64,000 nucleotides of DNA. Source: Halorhabdus utahensis DSM 12940 (GTDB lineage Archaea; Halobacteriota; Halobacteria; Halobacteriales; Haloarculaceae). The stretch is from positions 62,001-126,000 of the forward strand of contig NC_013158.1 of the NCBI RefSeq assembly GCF_000023945.1, read 5' to 3'. The notes under the pieces are model-generated. The model was not told where the DNA came from, ran no database searches, and saw only the letters and a list, made by a program, of their open reading frames with translations. The translations under genes were made by a program, and so were the position numbers. Positions within the stretch are counted from its first letter, which is position 1; each line of letters begins with the position of its first letter. Of this stretch, positions 22,929 through 45,299 are shown piece after piece.

Positions 22929-23207
22929 ATGAGTGAATCGGCCGTCGATCCCGATGAGGTCGAACACGTCGCTGACCTCGCGCGGGTGAATCTGGATCCC
23001 GAAGAGCGCGAGCGCTTCACCGAGCAGTTCGCCGATATCCTGTCGTCTTTCGAGACGCTCGACGAGGTTCCCGAGGTCGAACCTGCGTCGGAGTTGACCA
23101 ACGTCATGCGCCCCGACGAGGTCGAAACGAGTCTCGACCAGGACGAAGCACTGGAGAACGCCCCGGACCGCGAGGATGGGTTCTTCAAAGGGCCACGCGT
23201 CTCATGA
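22929..23207 (+). CDS. gatC: Aspartyl/glutamyl-tRNA amidotransferase subunit C
   Basis: 92 residues. VEHVADLARVNLDPEERERF is the canonical GatC N-terminal helix, followed by FADILSSFETLDEVPEVEP and the C-terminal RPDEVETSLDQDEALENAP. It holds GatA and GatB together in the complex that converts Glu-tRNA(Gln) and Asp-tRNA(Asn) to the amidated forms. It overlaps gatA by four bases. It is divergent from tfb across about 170 bp. Confidence 0.95.
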   Translation: MSESAVDPDEVEHVADLARVNLDPEERERFTEQFADILSSFETLDEVPEVEPASELTNVMRPDEVETSLDQDEALENAPDREDGFFKGPRVS

Positions 23208-31016: not shown

Positions 31017-31150
31017 AGCGAGAGCTACGAGTATGGTATGGAAAAACGTGGCGCAAACAGCGCATCGAGTCGGAATCGCCGGGACGGATAGAGACATTTT
31101 TTAGAGTGGGTGCGTTTTGGGGTAATGCGAAGGGTCGGCCACGGCGACGT

Positions 31151-31225
31151 GGGCGCTTAGCTCAGCCTGGACAGAGTACTTGGCTTCGGACCAAGCTGTC
31201 GGGGGTTCAAATCCCTCAGCGCCCG
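31151..31225 (+). tRNA. tRNA-Arg (anticodon TCG)
   Basis: 75 bases fold as a complete cloverleaf: acceptor GGGCGCT/AGCGCCC with discriminator G, D arm GCTC...GAGT, anticodon stem CTTGG/CCAAG with the loop CTTCGGA (anticodon TCG), and T arm GGGGG-TTCAAAT-CCCTC. No CCA is encoded. Its 3' half is the attachment site of the integrative element to the right. Confidence 0.97.
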
Positions 31226-31226
31226 T
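31185..31226. repeat. Attachment site left (inside tRNA-Arg)
   Basis: A 42-bp direct repeat of the tRNA 3' half from the anticodon to one base beyond the gene. The identical copy lies at 45258-45299. The integration restored a complete tRNA on this side. Confidence 0.9.
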
Positions 31227-31568
31227 AACAAGGCTTCTCGGTAGAGATTGACCGGACAGCGAAAGGGTCCTTATAAATCACATCAACCACCTGAGGCTTG
31301 ATTTCAACCCGTGACGGGACGCACCCTCTTTCGTCGTGCGTTCACTAAGAGCCGACGTGAGCCAGATGGTTAACTTTTCTCACCGTCACAATATCGGGCG
31401 TGGATGTCGCCGGGGCCGGATCATATATTTGGCTCATGTTCCCCATCAGGTCCCATGCAGCGCCGTCTCCAGTAACTCCAACAGTTGACGAGTGTTTGGG
31501 GTCGTGGCGTTCGTTCGTCTCCCAGCCAAGCGGGTCTGTCGGGGAGTAGTCGGCGAAATCGTAGTCGT

Positions 31569-31718
31569 CTACTCGACCATTCCCACTTTCCGCGCCTGAG
31601 CCAGAACCAGATCCGCATGCTCTCTGACCCACTCCTCCCCCTTCCGCTCCACCGTCTCCTCCAGTATTTGCTGACCTTCTGGGGTCAACTGTTGCCTGAG
31701 ATCACGGAGATCTGTCAT
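31569..31718 (-). CDS. 49-residue helical protein, unknown
   Basis: The ATG at 31718 opens MTDLRDLRQQLTPEGQQILE and the frame runs through VERKGEEWVREHADLVLAQA to a TAG at 31569. Composition is acidic and helical, as in real haloarchaeal genes. Its ATG overlaps the TGA of the preceding small gene (ATGA), which supports both. It may be a small regulator of the element. No family is recognised. Confidence 0.6.
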   Translation of the reverse strand: MTDLRDLRQQLTPEGQQILEETVERKGEEWVREHADLVLAQARKVGMVE

Positions 31719-31879
31719 ACGTTGGGGTCCTCGTCCATATTTTGGACTCCGGCGTCATAACCGTGATCGTCTGTCTGGGGGTCCAGACGATACAGTCGAA
31801 GATACTCTCCGCGATCTCCATCCCCGAACCCACTTGGCCCTCCGTCTGATGATTCAGCGTGAGGGGACCGAGATCCCAC
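31715..31879 (-). CDS. 54-residue acidic protein, unknown
   Basis: From a GTG at 31879 the frame reads MGSRSPHAESSDGGPSGFGD and then EYLRLYRLDPQTDDHGYDAG before a TGA at 31715. An in-frame TAA lies just upstream of the GTG region, so the gene cannot be longer. The stop overlaps the next ATG. One of the dispersed palindromes (31772-31789) falls in its coding region and another (31843-31860) near its start. Function unknown. Confidence 0.5.
   Translation of the reverse strand: MGSRSPHAESSDGGPSGFGDGDRGEYLRLYRLDPQTDDHGYDAGVQNMDEDPNV
31772..31789. promoter_or_regulatory. Dispersed 18-bp palindrome, copy 1
   Basis: TGTCTGG-GGGT-CCAGACG: arms pair at six of seven positions and the spacer is the complement of ACCC. 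Confidence 0.6.
31843..31860. promoter_or_regulatory. Dispersed 18-bp palindrome, copy 2
   Basis: CGTCTGA-TGAT-TCAGCGT, within the start region of the small gene that begins at 31879. Confidence 0.55.
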
Positions 31880-31954
31880 CGACCGGTTTTATCTCAATCG
31901 GTGACGGCATCCTGTTCGATCCCAACTCGCCAGTGGCCCGCCTCGTGACTCGTC

Positions 31955-31972
31955 TGTCTGAACCCTCAGCGA
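31955..31972. promoter_or_regulatory. Dispersed 18-bp palindrome, copy 3
   Basis: TGTCTGA-ACCC-TCAGCGA, in the non-coding interval upstream of the small gene that begins at 31879. Confidence 0.6.
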
Positions 31973-32019
31973 CGACTCCTATCTCTGATGATCTGGCACG
32001 ATCCTCTTTCGTTGCTGGT

Positions 32020-32295
32020 CTACTCCTCTCTCATCTGCTCGACGCACCAGTAGTACATCTCTTCGCGTAATCCCGGAGATGTTGGACCGAACAGCATTCC
32101 GAGTCGATAGCCGAGGTTATGCCACGAGAGACTACTGTGGGCACGCTCACCGTAGTCCTCCTTGTCCGTATCTACGCCCTTTCGCCAGCCTTGGTTGAAT
32201 ACGTCGAGTTTTTCGTCATCGGGATCGGGGTCATCCCGGTCGTCTTCTGCATGTGTTAGCGCTTGGTTGATGTGATACGTCAGGGAATCGTTCAT
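32020..32295 (-). CDS. 91-residue protein of the integrative element, unknown
   Basis: The ATG MNDSLTYHINQALTHAEDDR gives 91 residues; five more are open upstream. An acidic linker (DDPDPDDEKLDVFN) leads to LSWHNLGYRLGMLFGPTSPG and a C-terminal EEMYYWCVEQMREE. The tryptophan/tyrosine-rich C-terminal half looks like a compact helical domain. Similar proteins occur on haloarchaeal plasmids, as far as I recall; function unknown. Confidence 0.65.
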   Translation of the reverse strand: MNDSLTYHINQALTHAEDDRDDPDPDDEKLDVFNQGWRKGVDTDKEDYGERAHSSLSWHNLGYRLGMLFGPTSPGLREEMYYWCVEQMREE

Positions 32296-32817
32296 GTGGA
32301 TAACGAACAAATCCTACCCTCATGGGTCTTTGGTCCCCTCGGGCTTTGGCGATCAGGTCCGACACTCTTTCTGGGAACCTCCGGAATCAGCGGCCTCGAA
32401 GTTTGGGGTTTCGGTTCTGTCGGCACTACCTCACGGCTCGTTCTCCCACAGGCCGATTCTCTACCCGTCTCGTCGGTCGTAGACGGCTCTGCTCACACTC
32501 GAAGCGTTCGTAGGTGGTATGGGCCCCGATCAACTCGATCCGCGGCTAACGGGACTGGAGAGGCCCGCTGTACCTTTAGCGCCGATCTCGGGGGCAGGGG
32601 TCCTGTCGCCGAGGTGTCGACCCCGTGATGGCAACCTCGTTGTCTAGGCCGAGTCTCTCCGCTTAGTCGCCCGCCAGCCCCTCGCGGACAGCGCTGGCTC
32701 TACGCTCTCGCACCTTCGATCATGATCAAGGAGTTTGACTCATTGGCCACTTGCGTCCCACTCAGGAAGGCCGTGACGGCGTCGACGACACTCAGTGTCG
32801 ATTACGATCGTTGACAC
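32296..32817. other. Non-coding interval of about 520 bp
   Basis: No reading frame here has haloarchaeal codon use or acidic composition. I see only short palindromes (GATCATGATC near 32719 and CGACACTCAGTGTCG at about 32783). It may be decayed coding sequence or a regulatory interval; nothing more can be supported. Confidence 0.4.
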
Positions 32818-33285
32818 TCACTCTTCTCGCTCAAAGTCGGAGAGACGCATTTCTTTATTACCGTCTTGACTCCGGCCCTCTTGATTATCAAAATTTAGCT
32901 CCCTGGAGCCGGTTGTTTCATCGACAGGAACTACCTGTTCTCCGCCGACATATATCTCGCCATCTCGTTCCTCTACATCGCCCTGTTTGAGTCGGTAGAT
33001 TAGTTTATTATTGCTCATCTTATCGCCTGACTCTGTTACGTAATATCGACCTTTTTCATTCCCCCAACTGAGCAACGTAACCTCACTCTCTGAATCGGGC
33101 ATTTCGATAACCAGGATATCCGCCTCTATCTGATACGGTGGGCTCGCATCCTCCTGTGAACGCAGATCGTTGATGACGTTCCTGACATGGACCCTGAACC
33201 GCTCAACAGCTTTCTCAATATTCTCCTCCTCTACCTCGTGGACATATCTCCAGCGTTTAACGGCCGGGACGGAGGGATCGGTCAC
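32818..33285 (-). CDS. 155-residue protein of the integrative element, unknown
   Basis: MTDPSVPAVKRWRYVHEVEE starts a helical N-terminal half, followed by strand-rich segments (YQIEADILVIEMPDSESEVT, KGRYYVTESGDKMSNNK) and a charged tail (DGEIYVGGEQVVPVDETTGS). The gene has noticeably lower G+C than the core, as expected for transferred DNA. It stands divergent from the wHTH gene at 33385, and a copy of the 18-bp palindrome lies between them. No family is recognised. Confidence 0.65.
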   Translation of the reverse strand: MTDPSVPAVKRWRYVHEVEEENIEKAVERFRVHVRNVINDLRSQEDASPPYQIEADILVIEMPDSESEVTLLSWGNEKGRYYVTESGDKMSNNKLIYRLKQGDVEERDGEIYVGGEQVVPVDETTGSRELNFDNQEGRSQDGNKEMRLSDFEREE

Positions 33286-33321
33286 GGTGACTTACTTTAT
33301 ATCTAAGATACTTGTTTGTTT

Positions 33322-33339
33322 CTACTGACCCCTCAGAGA
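33322..33339. promoter_or_regulatory. Dispersed 18-bp palindrome, copy 4
   Basis: CTACTGA-CCCC-TCAGAGA in the intergenic region between the divergent genes at 33285 and 33385, a natural operator position. Confidence 0.55.
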
Positions 33340-33384
33340 ACGCTGTTCTATCACTTTCGGTCCCACCGGTCAGCGTTTTCAGTG

Positions 33385-33633
33385 ATGGGGCTTGTGCCGG
33401 AGACGAAGGTTCGTATCTTGGAAGCGTTAGCCGAGGAGCCAACACATGGGTACCAACTTGCCGAGGATCTCGATCTCTCCCACGGCTACATATACACGCA
33501 CCTAAAGGAACTCCGCGATGAGAACATGATCGAAGTCGTTGAGGAAGGCATGGATAAGAAGATCTATGAGTTGACCGAAAACGGAATCTATCTTCTCGCG
33601 GCACTCACTGACCGGGATCCAGACTCCGTCTGA
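33385..33633 (+). CDS. PadR-like winged-helix regulator
   Basis: 82 residues from MGLVPETKVRILEALAEEPT. The PadR-type signature is clear: GYQLAEDLDLSHGYIYTHLK, ELRDENMIEVVEE and a wing (KKIYELTENGIYLLAALTD). It lacks the C-terminal dimerisation helices of long PadR proteins. It is the only plus-strand gene of the left part of the element and has a palindrome copy upstream and one across its stop codon, so it is a candidate binder of that motif. Confidence 0.8.
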   Translation: MGLVPETKVRILEALAEEPTHGYQLAEDLDLSHGYIYTHLKELRDENMIEVVEEGMDKKIYELTENGIYLLAALTDRDPDSV

Positions 33634-33644
33634 ACCGTCAGCGA
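33627..33644. promoter_or_regulatory. Dispersed 18-bp palindrome, copy 5
   Basis: CGTCTGA-ACCG-TCAGCGA overlaps the stop codon of the wHTH gene. The following 230 bp to 33874 contain no convincing gene. Confidence 0.6.
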
Positions 33645-33874
33645 CACCCCCGAAGATATTCAGAACTACTCATACTCTCTCCCTCAATCCCTCCGGTGCT
33701 GCCAGCGTCGACAGTTCGGGTTTCGGTTAGTCGCACGATCCTGAGCCTTCCATTAGCCCCCTGCGGACGCCTCTGTGGCCCCTTACACGATCATTCGACG
33801 AGGTCTATGTGGGATTGGTCGTCTTACTTGATCGTGGGTGTCTCAGAGGGTCACAGCGGGCCTCGGTTGGTCCT

Positions 33875-34600
33875 TCAGAGATCTTCGCGACTGAACACGA
33901 GTCTGGCGCTGTGCTCCTCCAGCCACTCGGCGTGCTCCTCGTAGCGGGGATCGTGCTCGGCCACGAGTGACCAAAACATGTCGGTGTGATTCGGCTCGCG
34001 TAGGTGGGCGAGTTCGTGGACCACGACGTAGTCGATCACCTCTGGCGGGGCCATTAGCAGCCGCCAGTTCAGGCTGATCGTTCCGTTCGTCGAACAACTC
34101 CCCCACCGGGTCCGCTGGTTTCTGATTTCGAGACCGTCGTACTCCAGCCCCATCTCAGCGGCGAAGTGATCGAGACGGTCAGAGAGGTGCTCGCGGGCCT
34201 GACGTCGGTAGAAGTTCCGGAGGGCGCGCTTGATCGACGACTGTTCGACCGCGCTTCGTCGAAGGTGGATCGTCCCTTCCCCAACGACGGATTTCTTTCT
34301 GGGCTCAACGACCAGTTCGCGCTCCTCGCCCAGGTACGGGAACGTCTCACCGGGCTCAAATGTCCGATCCGGGACATCGTCCCGATAGCTGTCGAACTTT
34401 GCCTTCTTGTCGAGCACCCACATCGCGTTCTCCGTCAGGATCGCCTCCGGATCCTCGTGGGCGTCTGAGGGTACAATGACGGTGATCCCGTCGATCCCCG
34501 CGTCGATCCGGGCCTGTGTGGCGTCATCGCTCTTCGTGACCTCGTAGACCACTTCTTCGCCGGCCAGCGTCGTCGTTCGCTTACTCGTCGTCTGCGACAT
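33875..34600 (-). CDS. YgjP-type zinc metallopeptidase in a type I RM operon
   Basis: 241 residues. The N-terminal half is a beta-rich YgjP/DUF45 domain (ITVIVPSDAHEDPEAILTEN, EGTIHLRRSAVEQSSIKRAL). NQRTRWGSCSTNGTISLNWR is the diagnostic block, followed by the metal site VVVHELAHLREPNHTDMFW (HExxH plus downstream His) and a final VAEHDPRYEEHAEWLEEH. It overlaps hsdR by 20 bases, so it is part of the same transcript. YgjP-like proteins beside hsdR genes are recurrent in databases as far as I know; what they cleave is unclear. It might turn over HsdR or a phage protein. Confidence 0.88.
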   Translation of the reverse strand: MSQTTSKRTTTLAGEEVVYEVTKSDDATQARIDAGIDGITVIVPSDAHEDPEAILTENAMWVLDKKAKFDSYRDDVPDRTFEPGETFPYLGEERELVVEPRKKSVVGEGTIHLRRSAVEQSSIKRALRNFYRRQAREHLSDRLDHFAAEMGLEYDGLEIRNQRTRWGSCSTNGTISLNWRLLMAPPEVIDYVVVHELAHLREPNHTDMFWSLVAEHDPRYEEHAEWLEEHSARLVFSREDL

Positions 34601-37541
34601 AGTTTTGAATCAGGTAGGTATGGACGGCGTCGATGAACTCGTCGGTGACCAGTTCGCCTCGGTCGTGTTCTTTCACCAGTACATCCAACAGTACAAGTTC
34701 GATCTCCTTGACCGTCTGGTCGTTCGTCTCCCATCCTTCGTAACTCGTGTCGACGCGGTCGTCGAACTCGGCTACGATGTCGCGGGCAAGTGCTTCGACG
34801 GTGTCCTCAGAGAGATCGAGATCTCGCTCCTCAGTGATGTCTGTGAAGATAGCGAACTCGGCATCGGACATCCCGCGTTCGTTAGCCTCCTCCTCGATGG
34901 CAAGCACCTCTGCTTCGACCTCCCGGAGCGCCTCGACGGCCTCGGGATCGGCTCTGTCGCCAGCCTGCCACTCCTCGACGATGTCGGTCACGCGCTCGCT
35001 CAGTCGTTCGTAGCGGGGGTTCTGTCCCATTCGAGATTGCGTGCTCTCCTGGATGGCGTGAGCGATCGTCGACGCCTTTGCGGCGTCACTCCTGAGGTGG
35101 TCCAGGTCCTCCAAGTACTCCGCGCCGAGTTCGTAGACGGGATAATCCCGCTTGATCTCGCCGATGTCGACGTGCTCCTCGACGATTTCACGCGTCTTCT
35201 CGCGCATCTCGTCTTCAGGTCGTTCCGAGCGGTTGGCCGTCCGCTGGAAAGCCGTGTGGATCCGCCCGAGCCACCCGTAATCCTCATCGATCCCTTCTTC
35301 GACAAGTCGGCGATCTGGCGAGACCGATTCATAGAGGTCCTGGAGTCGTCGGAACCCTTGCTTGAACTCTCGCTTCTCAGGATGGGTACTCACTCGGTCA
35401 AGGCACTCGTCGACGACCTCCTGGCTGTCCTCCCTGGGGATTCCCTCGAAGATATCGAGAACTGCGTCGAGTTGGTTCTGGAGTTTCTCGAACAGTTGCT
35501 CGCTGTCTTGGGCCGCGTACTGTTTCGTCTCGTCGTCGTAGTCGAGGGCGTCGTCGATATTCTCGAAGACACCCTGGAAGTCGACGATTTCGCCATTCTC
35601 CTTGCCATCAGCGGGCCGGTTCGTGCGGGCGATCGCCTGCATGAGAGTGTGATCATGGAGTTCCCGGTCCAAGTACATCGTCTTCAGTACAGGGGCGTCA
35701 AAGCCCGTCAGTAGCATATTGTGGACCACGAGGAGTTTGGGATCGTCTTCGTTTTTGAAGTCCCGGACGATCTGATCACGCTCGCCGGGATCGGTATGGA
35801 ACTGCTGGAGTAACTCCGGATCGTCTTGCGTCGTGGTAAAGAGAACGTCAACGGCGTCCTCGCCTCGCCGGTCGACCAAGCGTTCCCCGTACATGGCCGC
35901 CGACTCCCGACTCGGGGTGACGACCATGCCTTTCCAGCCGTTCTTCTCGACGCCATCGAAGTGATCGTCGATCTCGGCGACCACACGTTCGACGCGGGGC
36001 TCGATCTCGGCGAGCATCCGACTGGTGACGTGATCGCGGATGATCGCCAACTTCTCCTCTTTGGGGAGGGTGGCGAACGCCTCGTCGAACTCCTCGTCGA
36101 GGCCGGCCTCGTCGACGTCCCAGTCCATCTCGTGGCGGAGTCGGAAGAAAACCGGGAGGATCAGCTCGTCGTCGATGCCGTCCTTGATCGAGTAGCGGTG
36201 GAGGTACTCCTCGCCCTCGGGAGAAAACTCGTCGAACGTGTTGCGGTCCTTCTCGCGGTCGCCTTCGCGGACGGGCGTCCCGGTAAAGCCGAAGTGGTAC
36301 GCATCGGGAAGGGCGGCTTCGAGTCTGCTCCCGAGATCGGCCTCCAAGAACCGGTGGGCTTCGTCGGACATCACGACGGCCTCGTCGGTCGACTGGACGC
36401 CGGGATCGACGTCTTGGAACTTCTGGATGGTCGTCACGACGAGTTCGCTCCGGCCCGCCGCGATGGTGTCTTCGAGTCCCTCGATACTCTCGGCCTCGGT
36501 CCAGCGCTCGAAGGAGAGGTTGGCGAGCTGGTCGCGCATCTGGCTGTTCAGTTTGTCCGTGTCGACGACGACAAACAGTTGCGGGGCGTCGAGAATGTCG
36601 CGTTCGAGGAGGTTCTTCGCCGTGAACAGCATCGTGAACGACTTCCCCGAGCCCTGGGTGTGCCAGATCAGTCCCTTGCGGTGATCGCCGCGCTCGACAC
36701 GGTCGAGGATCCGCTTCACCGCGTAGTACTGCATATGGCGGGGGATGATCTTCGCGTCTTGGTCCGGTTGCTCCTCGAAAAAGACGAAGTACTTCAGGAT
36801 GTCCAGTAGCGTCTGAGGGTTCAGCAAAGCCTGGACGGCCTGCTTGACGTCGTTGTCAGACTGGTAGGCCTCGGGTGCGGTCGTCCACCCTTGGTAGAAC
36901 TCGCGGGGGGCTCGGACGGCTCCGTACTGGAAGACACTCTGGTCGGCGGCGACGTTGAACAGCGTCGGGATGAATGCCCGTGGGACCTTCTCCTCGTAGG
37001 CCTGGAGGTCGGTGATCGCGTCGTAGAAGTCGTTGTCCTGGGTGACGGATTTCAGTTCCATCTGGACGATGGGGATCCCGTTGATGAGCAGGGTCACGTC
37101 GGGGCGAATCGAGCCGCGTCGGGAGACGGCGAACTCGTCGACAGCGTGGAGCCGGTTGTTCTCGGGGTGCTCGAAGTCGATCAAGTCGGCGTAGATCGTC
37201 TTCGTGCCGTTGTGTTGCTGGTCGACGGTGTGTTTCTTGCCCGTGGTCAGGATCTCGTGGAACGCCTCGTTGCCGTCGAGCAGGTTGTCGTGATCGAGGT
37301 CGCGCCGGAGCGAGTTGAGAAAGCGGTCGACGTTGGCCTCGGTCAGTTCGTCGTTGATCTCGACGACGGCCTCGGCGAGCAGGTCCCAGTAGATGACCTC
37401 CGAGCGTTGGCGGCCGTATCGCTCGTCGAGAACCGTCGCGCCGTGGCCTTCGTCTGGGTCATACGTCTCCCACCCGAGGCCGTCGAGCCACTGGAGGACC
37501 GATGTCTGAAGGCCGCCCTCAGATGGTTGTTCGTTAGCCAT
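34581..37541 (-). CDS. hsdR: Type I restriction enzyme subunit R
   Basis: 986 residues. The N-terminal nuclease domain has RPDVTLLINGIPIVQMELKS, with the D and ExK residues of the PD-(D/E)XK fold. The motor domain shows Walker A HTQGSGKSFTM, DEAH-like MSDEAHRF, FTGTPVREGD and the late VVHNMLLTGFDAPVLKTMY and QAIARTNRPADG helicase motifs. A helical C-terminal region from about 780 contacts HsdM. All active-site residues visible are intact. It starts eight bases inside the end of hsdS. It translocates and cuts unmodified DNA. Confidence 0.95.
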   Translation of the reverse strand: MANEQPSEGGLQTSVLQWLDGLGWETYDPDEGHGATVLDERYGRQRSEVIYWDLLAEAVVEINDELTEANVDRFLNSLRRDLDHDNLLDGNEAFHEILTTGKKHTVDQQHNGTKTIYADLIDFEHPENNRLHAVDEFAVSRRGSIRPDVTLLINGIPIVQMELKSVTQDNDFYDAITDLQAYEEKVPRAFIPTLFNVAADQSVFQYGAVRAPREFYQGWTTAPEAYQSDNDVKQAVQALLNPQTLLDILKYFVFFEEQPDQDAKIIPRHMQYYAVKRILDRVERGDHRKGLIWHTQGSGKSFTMLFTAKNLLERDILDAPQLFVVVDTDKLNSQMRDQLANLSFERWTEAESIEGLEDTIAAGRSELVVTTIQKFQDVDPGVQSTDEAVVMSDEAHRFLEADLGSRLEAALPDAYHFGFTGTPVREGDREKDRNTFDEFSPEGEEYLHRYSIKDGIDDELILPVFFRLRHEMDWDVDEAGLDEEFDEAFATLPKEEKLAIIRDHVTSRMLAEIEPRVERVVAEIDDHFDGVEKNGWKGMVVTPSRESAAMYGERLVDRRGEDAVDVLFTTTQDDPELLQQFHTDPGERDQIVRDFKNEDDPKLLVVHNMLLTGFDAPVLKTMYLDRELHDHTLMQAIARTNRPADGKENGEIVDFQGVFENIDDALDYDDETKQYAAQDSEQLFEKLQNQLDAVLDIFEGIPREDSQEVVDECLDRVSTHPEKREFKQGFRRLQDLYESVSPDRRLVEEGIDEDYGWLGRIHTAFQRTANRSERPEDEMREKTREIVEEHVDIGEIKRDYPVYELGAEYLEDLDHLRSDAAKASTIAHAIQESTQSRMGQNPRYERLSERVTDIVEEWQAGDRADPEAVEALREVEAEVLAIEEEANERGMSDAEFAIFTDITEERDLDLSEDTVEALARDIVAEFDDRVDTSYEGWETNDQTVKEIELVLLDVLVKEHDRGELVTDEFIDAVHTYLIQNYVADDE
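36810..36827. promoter_or_regulatory. Dispersed 18-bp palindrome, copy 6 (inside hsdR)
   Basis: CGTCTGA-GGGT-TCAGCAA lies in the hsdR coding sequence, in the reversed spacer orientation. A weaker copy with only one good arm (CGTCTGA-GGGT-ACAATGA) is at 34462-34479 in the metallopeptidase gene. Confidence 0.5.
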
Positions 37542-38862
37542 GCTGGAGTGCGTCGTCTACGATCTCGATGTCTGTGTCGTGGGTGCGGACCTTGCCCGAG
37601 AGGAGGTCTTGCATGAGGCCCTGTTTGAGGCGCTGGAGTTGCCTTTTGGACTCTCTCTGACTTTCGAGAGATTCTGATATTGATGACACCTTTTCGACGA
37701 TCCGCTTCTGTTCATCGAGCGATGGCACTCCGACTCGAAGCTTACGGAGGGCCCCGAGGTTGAAGTGCTTCTGTGCCAGACCAGCCTGAAACCGGTCGAT
37801 CTGCTTTCTCCCTGCAAAGGAATTAATCCACATAGCGGCGTAGTGGGGGTCCAATTTCGGTCCCGGCGTGGAAATGAGTAAATCTGCACAGTTTGCCCCA
37901 TCAAATTCACCGTCGACGACGCAAGAAAGGCCGGGGTCCCCCGACCTCACCGTTATTACGTCACCTTCCTGCAATCGGCTGTTTTCATTTTCGGCGTTCG
38001 ACTCTTCCGACATATACTCGAAATCCCCATCAACGATGCCATCTCTGGAGATATCTTTCGAGCGAAGAATCGGGACTGTTCCGTCGTCGTCGTAATACTG
38101 GGAAGGCTTAACGACGATACCGACGGAGGAATCTGAAATCAGTTTGCTGTACTGTTTGACATCCCAGTCACAGGGAATGTCGCCGACCCAACTGCTTCGA
38201 TATGCGACATCGTCGTCGGGCCTGAGCGTCCCATCTTCACGAACGCCCCTCGAAAGGACATCTTGTTCAGTACCACGACGGACCCGTTCAGTTTGCTCGA
38301 TTATCTCTTCGCTCTTCTGAATCGCCTGATCGACGGTATAGAGCACGCTGGCGATTTTGCGCTGTTCTTCGGCCGGAGGCATGAGTGCTTTCAGGCCGTA
38401 CGCATCATTTCGGTTTAATCCAGGTATGGCAGATGCAGCGTTTAACCGTTCCAGTTGGATGTTCTGAAGGAGGTAATACAGGAAACGCAGGTTTTGGCTC
38501 GTCTCCTCGCTTGTGATATAGTATGTCGTATCGATAGGCCAAAACGGTCTATCGCTGAAATCAATCTCACCAATTGAACCCTTTCGCCCCAATATGATGC
38601 CTGGTTTCTCTACAGCGGCCTCAGAATGCGTGTCTACCTGGCCATTAGAGCCAAAAACAGGTACGGTTCCACTTTCTCGACTATCTGATGGAAGATTATC
38701 ACCGTACTCTAAGGTTAGAATCTCACCCAGCCTAACAAGATTCCATGACTCAATCGGGGAAGATTCGAATTGCTGTAAATCCCCAACACTAACGTCTCCA
38801 GAATGATTTCCTCCTGCTTCCTGCTCATCTACGAACTCGTCCAGCGTCGCCTCCTCACTCAT
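37534..38862 (-). CDS. hsdS: Type I restriction enzyme specificity subunit S
   Basis: 442 residues with two target recognition domains (about 35-150 and 225-370), each followed by a coiled-coil-like helical region: PPAEEQRKIASVLYTVDQAI and PSLDEQKRIVEKVSSISESL. The repeat of this half-subunit design means a bipartite target. The sequence is less GC-rich than hsdM and hsdR, as usual for the rapidly exchanged TRDs. The recognition sequence cannot be inferred. It overlaps hsdM by eight bases. Confidence 0.93.
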   Translation of the reverse strand: MSEEATLDEFVDEQEAGGNHSGDVSVGDLQQFESSPIESWNLVRLGEILTLEYGDNLPSDSRESGTVPVFGSNGQVDTHSEAAVEKPGIILGRKGSIGEIDFSDRPFWPIDTTYYITSEETSQNLRFLYYLLQNIQLERLNAASAIPGLNRNDAYGLKALMPPAEEQRKIASVLYTVDQAIQKSEEIIEQTERVRRGTEQDVLSRGVREDGTLRPDDDVAYRSSWVGDIPCDWDVKQYSKLISDSSVGIVVKPSQYYDDDGTVPILRSKDISRDGIVDGDFEYMSEESNAENENSRLQEGDVITVRSGDPGLSCVVDGEFDGANCADLLISTPGPKLDPHYAAMWINSFAGRKQIDRFQAGLAQKHFNLGALRKLRVGVPSLDEQKRIVEKVSSISESLESQRESKRQLQRLKQGLMQDLLSGKVRTHDTDIEIVDDALQHG

Positions 38863-40336
38863 AGTTCAGCGCCTCCATGTGCTGGTCCATCCGCGCCTCG
38901 ATCTCGTCGCGCTCGGCCTGCAACTCCCGGAGCGTCGCCAGTTCCTCAGCCACGTCGATCTCTTCCTCGGGTTCGGTCGTATCGACGTACAGCGCGATGT
39001 TGAGGTTGTAGTCGTTCTCCCGGATCTCCTCGATCGACACCGTCCGACTGACGCGCTCCTCGGTCGTCCAGTCCCGGAAGTTCTCGACGACGTGGGCCAC
39101 GCCCTCGTCGGTGAGTTCGTTCTGGTTCGAGAGTTCCCGATAGAAGGCCTCGTCGGCGGCGTGGATGAACTGCACCTCGCCCTCGCGCTCGGCGGGCTTG
39201 TCGGTGTTCAACAAGAGGATGGCCGAGGGAATCGAGTTGTTCTGGAACAGGTTCTCGGGCAGGCCGACGATGGCCTCGACCAGATCGTTTTCCAGCATCG
39301 GCTCCCGGTAGCGGGACTCGTGCTTGCGGAACAGCACGCCGTGGGGGATGACGATGGCCGCCTGGCCGGTCTCGTTCAACTGTTCCGCCATGTGCATGAT
39401 GAACGCGTAGTCGCCCCGGTCGGCGCGGGGGAGCTTCTCGTGCCAGTCAAAGCGCCCGTAGGTGTCGTCCTGGAGTTCGTCCTTCTGCCAGTCCGCCGAG
39501 AACGGGAAGTTCGCGAGCACGTAGTCGAACTTGGTCAGTTCGCCGTTCTCGGTGAACTGCGGTCGCAGGAGAGAGTCCTCGCGCTCGATCCGCCCGCTGA
39601 GGCCGTGGATCGAGAGGTTCATCTTTGCGATGGCGGCGATATCGGGATTGATCTCCTGGCCCGTGAACGTGAGCTTCGAGGGATCGCCGCCCTGCTCGTC
39701 ACGGTAGTGGGTGGCCGCCTCGACGAGCATCCCGCCTGATCCCACAGTCGGGTCGTGGAACGTATCGCCATCCTCGAAGGGGGCGAGCAGCCTGACCATC
39801 AACTCGACGATGTGGGGCGGGGTGAAGAACTGACCGCCGGACTTGCCCTCCTCCTCGGCGAAGTGGCGCACGAGGTCCATGTACGCCTCACCGAGCATAT
39901 CCGGCGGGACGCTGTCGTTATCGAGATCGATGGTGCTTAGGTGCTCGATCAGACGAGTGAGTCGATCGTCGGTAAGGGCGTCCTCGGCGACGTAGTCAGC
40001 CCGGAACACGCCCTCGACCTCGCCGTCGTTGGCCTCACGAAGGGCGTCGAAAGCGTCGTTGATCGCTTCGTCGACGTTCTCGTTGACCGCTCGTAGGTCG
40101 TCCCACAGGTAGCCGTCTGGGACATACGGTACGTCGTAGATGTTAGGCCGGTTGGCGTGTTCATCCCCGTACTCTTCGACGTATTTCTCGCGCTGTACCT
40201 CGAAGTTGTCCGAGATCGTCTTGTAGTACACCAGCGGAAGGATGAAATCCTTATACTCTGTCGAGTCAACAGCGTCACGGATGATGTCTGCGCACTTGAA
40301 GAGATGAGAGTCCAGTTCGTCGAGAGTCAGCGACAT
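38855..40336 (-). CDS. hsdM: Type I restriction-modification methyltransferase subunit M
   Basis: 493 residues. An N-terminal HsdM helical domain (about 1-130) is followed by an N6-adenine methyltransferase core: FHDPTVGSGGMLVEAATHYR is the SAM motif, and VLANFPFSADWQKDEL supplies the NPPF-type catalytic motif. The block GQFFTPPHIVELMVRLLAPF is the typical family signature. It modifies adenine in the HsdS target and with HsdS and HsdR forms the restriction complex. It is the first gene of the four-gene operon. The 160 bp upstream hold no gene. Confidence 0.95.
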   Translation of the reverse strand: MSLTLDELDSHLFKCADIIRDAVDSTEYKDFILPLVYYKTISDNFEVQREKYVEEYGDEHANRPNIYDVPYVPDGYLWDDLRAVNENVDEAINDAFDALREANDGEVEGVFRADYVAEDALTDDRLTRLIEHLSTIDLDNDSVPPDMLGEAYMDLVRHFAEEEGKSGGQFFTPPHIVELMVRLLAPFEDGDTFHDPTVGSGGMLVEAATHYRDEQGGDPSKLTFTGQEINPDIAAIAKMNLSIHGLSGRIEREDSLLRPQFTENGELTKFDYVLANFPFSADWQKDELQDDTYGRFDWHEKLPRADRGDYAFIMHMAEQLNETGQAAIVIPHGVLFRKHESRYREPMLENDLVEAIVGLPENLFQNNSIPSAILLLNTDKPAEREGEVQFIHAADEAFYRELSNQNELTDEGVAHVVENFRDWTTEERVSRTVSIEEIRENDYNLNIALYVDTTEPEEEIDVAEELATLRELQAERDEIEARMDQHMEALNYE

Positions 40337-40490
40337 GGGATGAACCTATCAGGGGATCATCTTAGTCGTTGGTGATTGGCGGTCCACTTCACTACGTGTT
40401 TCCAACCCACCAGATTTTCAGGAGGGGGTCCCGCTCTCTGTGGGAGGGTCTCCTAAGAGCGCGATCCGCCGATTTCGCGTTTCACTTCGC

Positions 40491-40508
40491 CGTCTGAACC
40501 CTCAACCA
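40491..40508. promoter_or_regulatory. Dispersed 18-bp palindrome, copy 7
   Basis: CGTCTGA-ACCC-TCAACCA covers the stop codon of the HTH gene that ends at 40502. Confidence 0.55.
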
Positions 40509-41155
40509 CTCTGTTCGTCGCATCCGTTGTCTATCTCCCGGAACTGGACAGGAGTCGTGCCTGAACCCTCAGACGGTCCATGTTCGGGGTGGTGTTGGTC
40601 GAAGTCGACAAGCCCGAGGAGCGTGGTAATCTGGTCGATATACTGGCGCTTCTCCTTCTGGATCTGTTCGATATCGGGCCCGTAATCGGTGATCTTCTCA
40701 TACTCGTTCGGGACGGGGATTGTTAGGGAGTAGACGTCGCCGTCGACGAGGATCACCTGTCCGTCTCTCGTCGGAGTCCCTTCGACGGTCTGCTCCTCGA
40801 AGTCGGTCGGGACAGTCGTCGTCCGTTCGTGGAGGGCTGTCTCGATCTCCTCCAGCCTCTCGATTTCTTCGCGGAGGGCGAGCGCGGCGTCGAGTCGCCA
40901 TTCGGCCTCGGTCATGGCCACGGTCTCGCGGACCTCCCGGCCAATCTCCGACTCGTTGATGTACCGGTAGACCTGCCGGGTCGAGATGTCGAGGGCGTCG
41001 GCAATCTCCTCAACCGACCACTGGCCGTCCGAGCCGGCTCCGAAGTACTTCGCAACCGCGAAACGGGCCTTGGCCTCAGGAGAGGTGTACTGACTCGGAC
41101 CGGTGGGACCGCGGGAGAGGGCGAGTTGATCGGCCCCATCGCGCTGATCAGACAT
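40502..41155 (-). CDS. HTH protein of the integrative element
   Basis: 217 residues. YTSPEAKARFAVAKYFGAGS leads into a Hin/HTH_7-like helix-turn-helix, EEIADALDISTRQVYRYINE. The middle is a long helical segment (WRLDAALALREEIERLEEIE) and the C-terminal part has short strands and another helix (YGPDIEQIQKEKRQYIDQIT). The plan of HTH plus coiled region suits a dimeric DNA-binding protein of a plasmid or virus. A strong TATA box (TATATAAA) and three palindrome copies lie upstream, so it is the first candidate to bind the dispersed palindromes. Confidence 0.75.
   Translation of the reverse strand: MSDQRDGADQLALSRGPTGPSQYTSPEAKARFAVAKYFGAGSDGQWSVEEIADALDISTRQVYRYINESEIGREVRETVAMTEAEWRLDAALALREEIERLEEIETALHERTTTVPTDFEEQTVEGTPTRDGQVILVDGDVYSLTIPVPNEYEKITDYGPDIEQIQKEKRQYIDQITTLLGLVDFDQHHPEHGPSEGSGTTPVQFREIDNGCDEQSG
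40558..40575. promoter_or_regulatory. Dispersed 18-bp palindrome, copy 8 (inside HTH gene)
   Basis: TGCCTGA-ACCC-TCAGACG lies in the 3' part of the HTH gene. Confidence 0.6.
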
Positions 41156-41183
41156 GACGTCTCTCGACCGATCTTTATGTCCG

Positions 41184-41191
41184 TTTATATA
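41184..41191 (-). promoter_or_regulatory. TATA box of the HTH gene
   Basis: The minus strand reads TATATAAA, about 28-36 bp upstream of the ATG at 41155, the correct distance for a short-leader archaeal transcript. Confidence 0.65.
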
Positions 41192-41213
41192 TGGGCGTTG
41201 GGACGTTCGTGGC

Positions 41214-41322
41214 TCGCTGGACCCTCAGACGAGGTCGCCCCTCGTTTGAGCGCTCAGACGAACTCGTCGAAGTCCTCGGTCCGACACTCGGTAGGGTGTA
41301 TCCTCGTCTGAACCCTCATCGG
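41214..41322. promoter_or_regulatory. Cluster of three 18-bp palindromes (copies 9-11)
   Basis: TCGCTGG-ACCC-TCAGACG (41214-41231), CGTTTGA-GCGC-TCAGACG (41243-41260) and CGTCTGA-ACCC-TCATCGG (41305-41322) lie in the 220-bp intergenic region between the HTH gene promoter and the end of the prim-pol gene. Starts are 29 and 62 bp apart. The position fits an operator array, an origin or a partition site. Confidence 0.6.
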
Positions 41323-41375
41323 ATGCTTGTTACTTTTCCGAGGAGTCGCGACATAAGACACACGGGGGGCGGTGG

Positions 41376-42683
41376 TTACAGACGGGTATTATGGGGTAGG
41401 TCGAGATCAAGGAACCCGTCGTCATACCAGATTGTCGCCCCTCGGTCCACGCTGGTCACGTATCCAGCGCGTTCGAGACATTTTAGTGCTCGTCTGACTC
41501 GTTTCATTACCGACCTCTCTTTACTGCCTCGCCACTGAATGAGCCCCTCATTAACGATGGTGGAAACAGTCGCCTCTCCCCCGAGTAGCTCCATGCTGTT
41601 CTGAAGAGTTATCAGGGTGGCCTCGTGGAACACTGGCCGGCCGCCGTTCTCCTTCGCGCTCTCGATCCAGATCCGACCGAGATCTGGATCGACTGGGTTG
41701 ATCCTCGTGAGTGCGGTGTTCGTGATTGTGTTCGTCAGGTAATCGTCGCGGTCTCGGAGCTTCACTCGGGGACGACACGCCCGCATGATGTCGGCGATGT
41801 CTACCTCGCTGAACCCCCAGACGAGGAGCATCGAGACAGTCGCCATGTCCGCCTCGCTCGTACTCGGATAACTGCCCCCGGGGTTGTATGTGGACAGTAG
41901 ATGATCCAGCTTCTTAGACACGATCCGAGCTTCCTGTACCGTCGCCCCCCACTCGTTTGTGACCGCGTCTGGGTCGAAATCCTTTCCTAAATCTTCGATG
42001 TCATCAGGCTCCAAGGGCTTTGGATCTCCGTGGGAAGAGCCTTTGCTGGCTCCGTTTGACGGTCGGAGTTCAGGAGGGATATGCTCCTCTCGAATCGTAC
42101 CGATGCCGGGATTTTGGACCTGATGGTAAATGCCTCCAGACGGATGGATCGAGCCCGGGGCGACTACATACCAGTTCTTCGCTCGAATCTCGCCCGCGCC
42201 GGCTAACTCACCTTTTCCATGAGCATTATCGACTGACCCGCTGTTACGGTAGGTCTGATGGTAGCCGGTTCCCGACCCACTTCGCACGAGGAGCGTACGC
42301 GGAGTCTCATTTGGGGGCCACAGACCAACATCGTCGTGATCCGTGAAGACAAGTTCCTCGGTTCCATGCTCTGGACGTCCAGCGTAAAGCACGAACCCAC
42401 GACTTCCGCTCCGGATCGCCTCGACAGCCTCATCGGGAGGGCGGAGTAGCTCTTTCGCCCGGGGATTATCCAGCCCAAACCGGTCTCGTATCGCCGGATT
42501 TTTGCTATCATCAGTTAGCGGCATCAGTAACACATCATCCCAACCGGCAACAGCGAGCGCGTCGAGATATTCACGAAGGAGTTGACCTCGTTCTTCATCG
42601 CTCGTGTTGCAGATACAGACACGATTCTGGTGATTACACTTGGTGGCCGATACGTCGATTCGTTGGTCTGATTCTGATGGCAT
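41376..42683 (-). CDS. Bifunctional primase-polymerase (prim-pol) replication protein
   Basis: 435 residues from MPSESDQRIDVSATKCNHQN. The prim-pol fold is recognisable: LVFTDHDDVGLWPP gives the metal-binding acidic pair, RSGSGTGYHQTYRNSG the SxH-like motif, and AGAGEIRAKNWYVVAPGSIH the conserved signature that is usually followed by PSGG.Y, as here. A helical region follows (about 230-360) and a C-terminal winged helix (VKRVRRALKCLERAGYVTSV-like segment) ends the protein. It would prime and copy the excised element. No separate helicase is present. Confidence 0.85.
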   Translation of the reverse strand: MPSESDQRIDVSATKCNHQNRVCICNTSDEERGQLLREYLDALAVAGWDDVLLMPLTDDSKNPAIRDRFGLDNPRAKELLRPPDEAVEAIRSGSRGFVLYAGRPEHGTEELVFTDHDDVGLWPPNETPRTLLVRSGSGTGYHQTYRNSGSVDNAHGKGELAGAGEIRAKNWYVVAPGSIHPSGGIYHQVQNPGIGTIREEHIPPELRPSNGASKGSSHGDPKPLEPDDIEDLGKDFDPDAVTNEWGATVQEARIVSKKLDHLLSTYNPGGSYPSTSEADMATVSMLLVWGFSEVDIADIMRACRPRVKLRDRDDYLTNTITNTALTRINPVDPDLGRIWIESAKENGGRPVFHEATLITLQNSMELLGGEATVSTIVNEGLIQWRGSKERSVMKRVRRALKCLERAGYVTSVDRGATIWYDDGFLDLDLPHNTRL

Positions 42684-42755
42684 TTTTTGTCCAACCAGAC
42701 CGGGCGAGATCGCCGACGCCACGTTTAAGCGGCATACCAACCAAAAATGAGGCGA

Positions 42756-42773
42756 AGTCTGTGAGTTCAGCGC
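42756..42773. promoter_or_regulatory. Dispersed 18-bp palindrome, copy 12
   Basis: AGTCTGT-GAGT-TCAGCGC, about 75-90 bp upstream of the prim-pol start, in the interval between that gene and the RHH gene. Confidence 0.5.
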
Positions 42774-42817
42774 CTCACTTTGGTCGGGGCTCCCTCCCCG
42801 GCCTTGGTTCTGATCGG

Positions 42818-42970
42818 TCAGTCGAGAGTCTCTTCTTGGGGATCGAGTTCGTCAGCGGCGCGTTCGAGGAAAGTCGTCCAGTCAATACCAAGCCTCGCCT
42901 TCGCCACGCGGGCCTGATCGCGGACTTCCTCGTGAACTCGGATCGTGGCATACTGAGGTCGTTCTGCCAT
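42818..42970 (-). CDS. 50-residue ribbon-helix-helix protein
   Basis: The ATG at 42970 starts MAERPQYATIRVHEEVRDQA, followed by KARLGIDWTTFLERAADELD. A strand ATIRVHEEV and two helices give the RHH plan of CopG-like repressors. It lies upstream of the prim-pol gene on the same strand, like the copy-number repressor CopG upstream of rep genes in plasmids. That role is an inference by position. Confidence 0.7.
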   Translation of the reverse strand: MAERPQYATIRVHEEVRDQARVAKARLGIDWTTFLERAADELDPQEETLD

Positions 42971-43285
42971 GACTCATCTTATCCACTAAAGGCCCAAATA
43001 TCCGAGGTATGGGTTCTCTATCTCACGTTTAGTAAAAATCAACGTCATCACATACCCGATATCGTTTCGCTCGTTCAGCTTGCACTCTATCCGGTTGGCG
43101 TCCGCCTCCCGGCGCGACAGATCGCGGTTTTCGGTGTGGCATCGACGAGAGGGTCCGCCACGGACCGCTGGGAGCCCTTCACGGGGAGTCCTTCTCTCGA
43201 CGAGGGGGATACATCGTCGAACATCTCGTGGGTCAGAAAAAGCCGCGTGACGAGGGTTGTTCGCCTTTAGCGGCGACTTCACCGA

Positions 43286-43507
43286 TCAAGGTGGACGAAG
43301 ATCCCGCCAGCGGAAGTCCACAACGTCGCCCGAGTCGAGTTCGAGGCGATAGATCAGGGAGTCACGTTCGTCACCAGTCGCTTGAGAAGCATCGTCTTCG
43401 AGAACGCTGAGAACGACTCCCTCTTCCCCATGATAGATGTCATGGTCGGGATCGGTCTCGTCAGGGATGTCGACCCGGACGCGGTCACCCTCAGTGAACC
43501 GCTTCAT
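43286..43507 (-). CDS. KOW/SH3-like small protein
   Basis: 73 residues from MKRFTEGDRVRVDIPDETDP. GDRVRV and GEEGVVLSVLEDD form the strand pair of a KOW/SH3-like barrel and a YRLELDSGDVVDFRWRDLRP tail closes it. Similar proteins occur across haloarchaea near zinc-ribbon genes and on plasmids. It is 27 bp downstream of the zinc-ribbon gene, so the two probably form one operon. Possibly binds nucleic acid; no direct evidence. Confidence 0.75.
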   Translation of the reverse strand: MKRFTEGDRVRVDIPDETDPDHDIYHGEEGVVLSVLEDDASQATGDERDSLIYRLELDSGDVVDFRWRDLRPP

Positions 43508-43533
43508 CAGCAGAGGTAAGAGCGGGGAGACAG

Positions 43534-43686
43534 TTAGTCCTGTCTCACCTCGGTCCACTCATGGCCACACGTCTCACAGGTGTAGTGCTCCTTGATGATC
43601 TTCGGTTCCTCCTTCTTGAACATCCAGACGTCGCTATCGTCGCTACAACGGGGGCAGGATTTGGAGGCCTTCCGTGCGATTGGCAT
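43534..43686 (-). CDS. 50-residue zinc-ribbon protein
   Basis: The ATG at 43686 gives MPIARKASKSCPRCSDDSDV with a second knuckle ETCGHEWTEVRQD, i.e. CPRC and CETC separated by 23 residues. The ribbon resembles that of TFS-like and ribosomal zinc fingers with a TCGHEW end. It may interact with RNA polymerase or act as a chaperone of other element proteins. Lies seven bases behind the preceding gene. Confidence 0.75.
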   Translation of the reverse strand: MPIARKASKSCPRCSDDSDVWMFKKEEPKIIKEHYTCETCGHEWTEVRQD

Positions 43687-43693
43687 GTCTTGA

Positions 43694-44080
43694 TCACCCC
43701 TTCGACTCGTCTCCTTCCCCCGACACGTCTGAGGGTTCAGCCGCCCGTACCTGCTCGACCTCCTCGATGGTCAAACGGATCTCATCGACGTCTTCGCTAC
43801 TGGGATTGAGCACAGAGAGGTCGAAAGTGGGGTCCTGATCGATCGGGACAGCAGAGGGCCGAACCTTTTCGATGTCTCGGACGATCCAGAAGCCCTCTGG
43901 ACTGTCGTCGGGATCGGCGAGCACCTCGAAGACAGCAAGGTCGGTAAACTCGTCGACGAACTTAGACAGATCATGCCACGAGGCGGGTTCGATCTTGGGG
44001 TAAGAGTTTTCGTCAGAAGCCTCTCTGACCCTCGGGAGGTCACATCCAGCGCCGTCTCTTGGGACTCCAGTTCGGTCCAT
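43694..44080 (-). CDS. 128-residue protein of the integrative element, unknown
   Basis: MDRTGVPRDGAGCDLPRVRE starts a frame with DLSKFVDEFTDLAVFEVLAD and SPEGFWIVRDIEKVRPSAVP in the middle and a strongly acidic tail. It begins four bases after the integrase stop, so it is probably translated from the same message. The C-terminal ERLTIEEVEQV-like helix and tail look non-catalytic. No family is recognised. A dispersed palindrome lies in its 3' part (43726-43743). Confidence 0.6.
   Translation of the reverse strand: MDRTGVPRDGAGCDLPRVREASDENSYPKIEPASWHDLSKFVDEFTDLAVFEVLADPDDSPEGFWIVRDIEKVRPSAVPIDQDPTFDLSVLNPSSEDVDEIRLTIEEVEQVRAAEPSDVSGEGDESKG
43726..43743. promoter_or_regulatory. Dispersed 18-bp palindrome, copy 13
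   Basis: CGTCTGA-GGGT-TCAGCCG in the coding sequence of the gene that ends at 43694; here the codons differ from those at the other coding copies. Confidence 0.6.
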
Positions 44081-44083
44081 GGG

Positions 44084-45100
44084 CTATACCCCTTCAAGAT
44101 AATCTCGGCGCTGTTCGACCTTGACCTCCTCCGAACGCTGGTCATAGTGCATATCGAGGACTTCCTGGCCGACATTCATTCTATCTGAGACGACTTTCTC
44201 CGGGACATCCTCGGACAAGTGATGAGTTATAGAGCCACGACGAATCGCGTGAGGAGAGACAGATGAAGGGCACTTACTGGCCGTCTTTCGATTCCCCTTT
44301 ACTGCCTCACAGGAGTCTTGCTGTCTTCCGTGGGGGCACTCACTCACATACTGACAGGGTCTCGTCCACCGATATACGGTCTCTCGGACCGTCGTCTTGT
44401 GGGCTCGTCCGTGTGACGTCGACAATAGTGGCTGACGACCGTATTCGTCGACGACGTCTGGCCGTTCGTGGGAAAGCCAGTCATCGAGGATCCGGCACAC
44501 CTCATCCGAGAGGGCAACAAGTCGTTCGCCCTCTTCTTTGTTCTTCAGTGGCGTCCCGGAACGATGACGAACTTTCAGCCGTTGCTCCTCGGGATCATAA
44601 TCTTCGACATCGAGAGCATGAGCGGCCCCGGTGCGGATTCCGGTGTGCCAGAGTAGCGCCATGAGAGTGTGAGCCCGGGAGGCGTACTGGAACCGACCGA
44701 GATAGTCCAGGAGTGCTTCGGCTTCCTCTGGGTCAAGCATCACGTCTCTTTGGTTCTCGCCATCGCTCAAAGTCGGAGAGAGGATTGAGGTGTGAAGATC
44801 AGTTTCGACGGCGTCAATCGACTCACAGAACCGGATGAACACCCGTAGAGTGTCCATCTGCGTCTTTACGGAGACTTGATTCAGGTCCCCGTCGTCCTGC
44901 CGCCAGAGCTTATACTGGTGAAGGGCACGGCCTGAGAGATCGTTCAGATTCTCGATCTCTTCGACCTCGCACCATCGGATGAAGTGACCGAGACGGTAGT
45001 CGTGGGCTTCGATCGTTGCGTCCGAGGCGTCGGTACCACGCTCTCGGAGATACATCTCTTTCGCTTCCACCGGGCGAATCGGTTCGAGTTCCTTGGACAT
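44084..45100 (-). CDS. int: Tyrosine recombinase / integrase
   Basis: 338 residues from MSKELEPIRPVEAKEMYLRE. The N-terminal SAM-like core-binding domain (about 1-115) is followed by a catalytic domain with LLWHTGIRTGAAHALD (first arginine), SPHAIRRGSITHHL (His-x-x-Arg) and VLDMHYDQRSEE (tyrosine nucleophile). A cysteine-rich insertion (CQYVSECPHGRQQDSC) between them may bind zinc, which is seen in some haloarchaeal integrases. It lies about 160 bp from the right att repeat, the usual place for the integrase of a tRNA-inserted element. Confidence 0.93.
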   Translation of the reverse strand: MSKELEPIRPVEAKEMYLRERGTDASDATIEAHDYRLGHFIRWCEVEEIENLNDLSGRALHQYKLWRQDDGDLNQVSVKTQMDTLRVFIRFCESIDAVETDLHTSILSPTLSDGENQRDVMLDPEEAEALLDYLGRFQYASRAHTLMALLWHTGIRTGAAHALDVEDYDPEEQRLKVRHRSGTPLKNKEEGERLVALSDEVCRILDDWLSHERPDVVDEYGRQPLLSTSHGRAHKTTVRETVYRWTRPCQYVSECPHGRQQDSCEAVKGNRKTASKCPSSVSPHAIRRGSITHHLSEDVPEKVVSDRMNVGQEVLDMHYDQRSEEVKVEQRRDYLEGV

Positions 45101-45257
45101 AGTTCGCTCCGAACGCCCGACGTCAAAGGGCCGTCCCAGGTCACCAGCCAACCCGACATCTCGCCCGATTCCCCGGGAGCGATCGTAGCTGGCTGCGGTT
45201 TTTCCCCATGTTTTGCGCGGAACGGCGCGTTAGCGCCGCACGCCCCGGAAAACATGG

Positions 45258-45299
45258 TTCGGACCAAGCTGTCGGGGGTTCAAATCCCTCAGCGCCCGT
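45258..45299. repeat. Attachment site right (tRNA-Arg 3' fragment)
   Basis: Identical 42-bp copy of 31185-31226. Upstream of it there is no 5' half, so this is not a functional tRNA. Its right flank (TGAATTCTGCG, then GAACGACAGTGAGCGTTGAG) recurs with one mismatch at 59247. Confidence 0.9.

Follow-up and report, generated by a model that had tools for sequence, protein, structure and literature searches.

The 64,000-nucleotide stretch of the Halorhabdus utahensis DSM 12940 chromosome analysed here (NC_013158.1, positions 62,001 to 126,000; hereafter the window) carries an integrated element of about 14 kb, at 31185-45299, bounded by exact 42-bp direct repeats of the 3' end of tRNA-Arg. Within it, an 18-bp interrupted palindrome, CGTCTGA-ACCC-TCAGACG, recurs in intergenic DNA, across stop codons and inside genes, on both strands. 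These sites are dispersed, specific to the element and under selection at the DNA level, as an earlier note on this DNA had proposed. The same motif is scattered over two related elements (in the haloarchaeal genomes G319 and G033) and over contigs of tailed viruses, where homologs of a helix-turn-helix (HTH) protein encoded by the window element accompany it. From these comparisons, we give about an even chance to the explanation that the element is a satellite of a tailed virus resembling HVTV-1, and that a small terminase (TerS)-like protein recognises the dispersed sites, which probably mark DNA for packaging.

The motif consists of two CGTCTGA half-sites about one helical turn apart. With a weight matrix built from the window sites, 17 sites of at least 14 bits were found in the element and none in the 49.9 kb of flanking DNA, dinucleotide shuffles yielding 0.25 on average; after refinement on two elements, the matrix gave 15 sites of at least 15 bits in the element (shuffles, 0.17; flanks, 0). 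Pattern searches of the 3,116,795-bp chromosome located the exact 12-mer CTGAACCCTCAG four times, always in the element (31958+, 36813−, 40561+ and 43729−), and not three times, as had been counted earlier. The 15-mer CGTCTGAACCCTCAG, allowing up to two mismatches, was found at 10 places in the genome, 7 of them within the element. The rest of the 3.1-Mb chromosome holds the motif at background level, so that its density is element-specific rather than equal along the chromosome. On the same grounds, a host factor was rejected as the binder. A repeat at the protein level was also rejected, because the sites are found between genes and in both orientations as well, though the intragenic copies favour one frame.

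All the copies listed in the earlier note are present at their positions. Two sites had been overlooked, a good one at 41806 and a weaker one at 39733; the copy at 42756 is borderline, and the copy at 34462, described as weak, is a real site and is conserved in a relative. The sites in the window are as follows:

31772-31789, minus strand: intergenic site CGTCTGGACCCCCAGACA, 20.5 bits; position kept in G319 and G033
31843-31860, minus strand: intergenic site ACGCTGAATCATCAGACG, 15.7 bits; position kept in G319 and G033
31955-31972, plus strand: intergenic site TGTCTGAACCCTCAGCGA, 25.6 bits; position kept in G319 and G033
33322-33339, plus strand: site CTACTGACCCCTCAGAGA between divergent genes, 19.5 bits; G319 copy at 24255
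33627-33644, plus strand: site over the stop codon of the PadR-like gene, 22.5 bits; G319 copy at 23950
34462-34479, minus strand: site within the YgjP-like gene, 18.5 bits; G319 copy at 23109
36810-36827, minus strand: site within hsdR, 25.3 bits; kept in G319 but in none of the 24 hsdR homologs from outside such elements
39733-39750, plus strand: weak site within hsdM, 15.2 bits; may be due to chance
40491-40508, plus strand: site over the end of the TerS-like gene, 22.9 bits
40558-40575, plus strand: site within the TerS-like gene, 25.4 bits
41214-41231, plus strand: site upstream of the TerS-like gene, 21.5 bits; kept in G319
41243-41260, plus strand: site upstream of the TerS-like gene, 19.1 bits; kept in G319
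41305-41322, plus strand: site upstream of the TerS-like gene, 21.3 bits; kept in G319
41806-41823, plus strand: site within the Prim-Pol gene, 21.1 bits
42756-42773, minus strand: borderline intergenic site, 13.6 bits
43726-43743, minus strand: site within orf43694, 27.1 bits; kept in G319 and G033

Besides the window's own, a close homolog of the HTH protein was found in 1 of 394 haloarchaeal genomes, G319, which belongs to another family of the same order (76% identity). The G319 element lies at a tRNA-Tyr gene, carries 22 sites and has in common with the window element the integrase gene (int), small open reading frames (ORFs), HsdM and HsdR, and the YgjP-like and PadR-like genes. The G033 element, obtained from a class-wide motif scan, measures 4.7 kb, also lies at tRNA-Tyr and contains 13 sites together with int, orf43694 and a gene for a zinc-ribbon membrane protein; it has no Prim-Pol, restriction-modification (RM) or HTH gene. 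The three elements come from three haloarchaeal families, with different tRNA targets. Isolated exact 15-mers, one each in G090, G242, G265 and G175, are near the chance rate.

The conservation among related elements on which the earlier proposal hinged is present. In the left intergenic block, which the three elements share, the site columns are 83-89% identical as against 53-67% for their flanks, and one site has its spacer reversed in G033 with both arms intact; together, these observations point to the recognition of two half-sites. The site within hsdR (36810) is found in the window and G319 elements, whereas none of 24 hsdR homologs outside them (two at 87% identity, the remainder at about 54-66%) carries this site or any other match. 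This indicates that the site either arose once the cargo was part of the element or has been maintained in it by selection.

Searching IMG/VR for pairs of nearby sites yielded 13 contigs, among which only L037 is rich in the motif (20 sites in 13 kb), the others having 0-2 matches. L037 encodes TerL and a portal protein; of the proteins of the element, only the HTH protein has a clear counterpart there (55% identity). Conversely, a search with the HTH protein led to G394, a 30.2-kb contig with 53 sites along its whole length and with genes for a major head protein, protease, portal, TerL and a TerS-like protein of the HVTV-1 type. The link between viruses and elements was thus found from both ends, from the motif to the HTH homolog and from the HTH protein to the sites. 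A wider HTH search added G431, which encodes TerL, portal and an HTH protein of 63% identity and contains 13 sites in 17 kb, compared with 0.04 expected. At default thresholds, the window HTH protein had no match in GTDB contigs, PLSDB plasmids or INPHARED phages. Counting sites of at least 15 bits, the density per kb is 1.07 in the window element, 1.58 in the G319 element, 2.74 in the G033 element, 1.54 in L037 and 1.75 in G394, the overall range in viruses and elements being about 0.8-2.7.

HTH homologs of at least 50% identity accompany the motif, whereas those of the type found in the Druskaviridae (about 33% identity) have no sites in five loci, and the recognition helix changes accordingly, from RQVYRY(I/L)N in site carriers to STIEDYVY in non-carriers. 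HVTV-1 (45 kb) and HCTV-5 (49 kb), whose HTH homologs are about 30% identical, contain no site of at least 15 bits by the matrix. In G394, 42 of the 53 sites lie inside genes (coding fraction, 0.86), in both orientations although the genes are all on one strand; 35 of these 42 (L051/L052) share one frame, which reads acidic S-E-P/G-S-D peptides, while one other frame contains a TGA stop. Sites that are mostly intragenic, in both orientations and with one preferred frame, argue for selection on the DNA, tolerated by the protein. G431 (70% G+C; L089:7372-8043) shows a weaker version of the motif and the helix RQVSRY in place of RQVYRY, a possible co-evolution of protein and site. L037 also has a short DNA match (74% identity) to window positions 31569-31720.

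The genomic position of the HTH gene in the viruses suggests what the protein may do. In HVTV-1, the homolog gp108, annotated as hypothetical, is followed by HNH, TerL, HNH and portal genes, a position that we take to be that of the small terminase. In L037, G394 and G431 the HTH gene again lies upstream of TerL in this region, separated from it by one to three ORFs, so that its placement agrees with that of a TerS gene just ahead of TerL. The HTH family corresponds to phrog_26615 in PHROGs, where its function is listed as unknown, and has marginal matches to small-terminase families; a sequence search of the PDB gave nothing significant. AlphaFold models of two members (monomers; predicted local distance difference test scores of 69 and 59) contain an HTH, a long helix, a beta hairpin and a C-terminal helix. 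Foldseek placed eight chains of 2AO9 among the matches, the best with a probability of 0.96 and a non-significant E value of 0.1, and weaker matches were obtained for the second model; 2AO9 is a small terminase (PMC4737164). Judged by gene order, sequence families and these models, the HTH protein is a likely TerS homolog.

It resembles the small terminases of tailed phages such as SF6, P22, phBC6A51 (2AO9) and HK97 in its N-terminal HTH, long helices, predicted beta hairpin and gene just before TerL, and differs from them in belonging to the archaeal family phrog_26615. We know of no small terminase for which dispersed specific sites are a feature. With respect to the Druskaviridae (HVTV-1, HCTV-1, HCTV-5), the virus contigs share with them TerL, the portal family phrog_18178 and a TerS-like gene at the same position, and G394 additionally shares the head protein family phrog_24667; in contrast, the Druskaviridae lack the dispersed motif, and their TerS has another recognition helix and an identity of only about 30%.

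The earlier note had named three candidate binders. The HTH protein at 40502 is the most probable one, the PadR-like protein at 33385 was rejected as the general binder since it is absent from the G033 element and was not found in L037, and no support was found for the ribbon-helix-helix protein at 42818. Two other candidates were also rejected: orf43694, which is in all three elements but was not found in L037 and is related to a domain of much larger HEAT-repeat-like proteins, and the Prim-Pol, which is absent from G319 and G033.

The other features of the window element are listed below. Integration is site-specific and due to its own integrase, given the 42-bp tRNA-Arg repeats, int, and the relatives at tRNA-Tyr.

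31185-31226, plus strand: att repeat at the left element end, 3' end of tRNA-Arg(TCG), the tRNA being at 31150-31226
33875-34600, minus strand: YgjP-like metallopeptidase, companion of the RM genes (PF01863, E 1e-59)
34581-40336, minus strand: type I RM cargo (HsdR 34581-37541, HsdS 37534-38862, HsdM 38855-40336; HsdS and HsdM called by Pfam, HsdR by gene order, its own sequence and homologs across haloarchaea)
40502-41155, minus strand: TerS-like HTH protein, proposed binder of the sites (phrog_26615, E 3e-21; virus homologs just upstream of TerL)
41376-42740, minus strand: Prim-Pol/RepB-primase-like replication protein (PF09250 and PF22448)
43286-43558, minus strand: small protein without assigned function, 88% identical in G319
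43694-44080, minus strand: orf43694, small protein adjoining int, kept in all three elements
44084-45151, minus strand: tyrosine integrase, int (PF00589, E 2e-11)
45258-45299, plus strand: att repeat at the right element end, exact 42-bp copy of the left one

Pfam and PHROGs scans of the main ORFs found no TerL, portal or capsid gene in the elements.

If the element is a satellite, the HTH protein would recognise the 18-bp interrupted palindrome through its helix-turn-helix, and the sites scattered over virus and satellite would identify DNA as viral and thereby lead the TerS/TerL motor to load it. Possessing both this tag and a TerS of its own, the satellite would be taken into helper particles, with the type I RM cargo travelling along, and the G033 element would use the tag alone, read by the helper's protein. 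A label in cis read by a protein of the helper would explain together the mobility genes of the elements, the replication genes that some of them have, their defence cargo, the lack of any structural gene found, and the possession of a virus tag with or without a TerS-like gene. More tentatively, and at somewhat less than even chances, a clade of archaeal tailed viruses may carry, over the entire genome, tens of copies of a tag read by the small terminase, the satellites having copied this tag even into cargo genes. The selection of DNA for packaging would then rest on a distributed label instead of one pac or cos site, which would be new.

The nearest known counterparts are phage satellites that encode TerS: phage-inducible chromosomal islands (PICIs), such as the pac-type Staphylococcus aureus pathogenicity islands, cos-type PICIs, and the PICI-like elements (PLEs) directed against a lytic phage. 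The window element resembles them in its integration at a tRNA through a tyrosine integrase, small size (14 kb), TerS-like gene, defence cargo, replication gene, lack of any structural gene found, and a DNA motif, possibly a packaging signal, in common with a virus. It differs in its archaeal host, the HVTV-1-like genes of its putative helper, and tens of dispersed copies instead of one local pac or cos. We found no TerS-type archaeal satellite in the open-access literature. A 2024 review cites only fusellovirus satellites for archaea (PMC11389934), and a survey of archaeal tailed viruses, in which TerS is not named, reports no proviruses related to the Druskaviridae (PMC8651126), which would be consistent with a satellite that exploits a lytic virus.

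Several points weigh against this explanation. The known pac and cos sites are local, not dispersed through a genome. HVTV-1 and HCTV-5 manage without the motif, and no other strong dispersed palindrome was found in them. The match between folds lacks significance (E 0.1), the TerS profile matches are marginal, none of the virus contigs is complete, and no helper and satellite are known from the same host or sample. The absence of structural genes refers to the main ORFs and not to every small one. Additionally, the DNA-binding domain of SF6 TerS binds pac DNA without sequence preference (PMC4737164).

The sites could instead act as the stoperators of mycobacteriophage L5 do, the HTH protein silencing virus and element genes from dispersed positions, as the earlier note had suggested; we consider this unlikely, at about one chance in four. 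As in L5, many short sites for one HTH protein are dispersed over a genome, at a density and with a distribution over both strands that resemble stoperators. The promoter region of the HTH gene contains three sites (41214-41322) and another is found between two divergent genes (33322), as for autoregulation, and TetR-type repressors are among the weak Foldseek matches. However, the virus HTH gene lies just upstream of TerL, at the small-terminase position, and not in an immunity region; the sites in the structural genes of G394 are about as dense as elsewhere, and both orientations are present in genes read one way. The two half-sites one turn apart and the lack of a fixed orientation to transcription also differ from L5. 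Furthermore, G033 keeps 13 sites without an HTH gene, which a self-encoded repressor does not explain unless G033 is a relic.

An improbable alternative is that the TerS-like protein of the element and its sites form a decoy that titrates or poisons the packaging machinery of an invading virus, in concert with the RM system, the element not being packaged itself. The type I RM genes and the lack of any structural gene found are compatible with such a defence, and the shared sites would bind the virus TerS. Against this, the integrase, the replication gene and the occurrence in three families at different tRNA targets are those of a mobile element, and G033 has the sites with neither a TerS-like gene nor RM. 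Replication or partition sites (iterons or parS-like), recognised by an initiator or partition protein, are very unlikely, since, despite the five-site non-coding block next to int that G319 and G033 share where the window element has its Prim-Pol, the sites are distributed over whole genomes, structural genes and hsdR among them, persist in these two elements without Prim-Pol, and go with a DNA-binding gene shared at the TerS position.

If the satellite explanation is correct, no satellite of the TerS type would, as far as we could find, have been described before for archaeal tailed viruses, and the motif together with the phrog_26615 protein would be a visible signature for finding more. 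A genome-wide packaging tag would depart from the pac/cos picture and offer a direct route to testing how these viruses tell their own DNA from that of the host. In addition, a family of haloarchaeal virus genes that lacks annotation would gain a function, and a type I RM island would be connected with transfer by viruses.

Some additional features of the elements were observed. The non-coding block common to G319 (L004:15380-16360) and G033 (L018:16345-17345) is 82-88% identical; its five sites are spaced 54/71/58/58, and its site-free core of about 400 bp is strongly conserved, possibly as an alternative origin or an RNA, with no match to Rfam in the conserved block. Between the window (37534-38862) and G319 (L004:18711-20000) elements, the identity of HsdS is only 30%, compared with 91-97% for HsdM and HsdR, indicating a swap of restriction specificity. 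orf43694 is homologous to a domain within HEAT-repeat-like proteins of about 600 residues in other haloarchaea. ARAGORN labelled the att fragment at the other end of the G319 element as tRNA-Phe, and the right end of the G033 element (L018:19034-19390) contains several tandem, partly degenerate tRNA-Tyr att fragments, as if integrations had recurred there.

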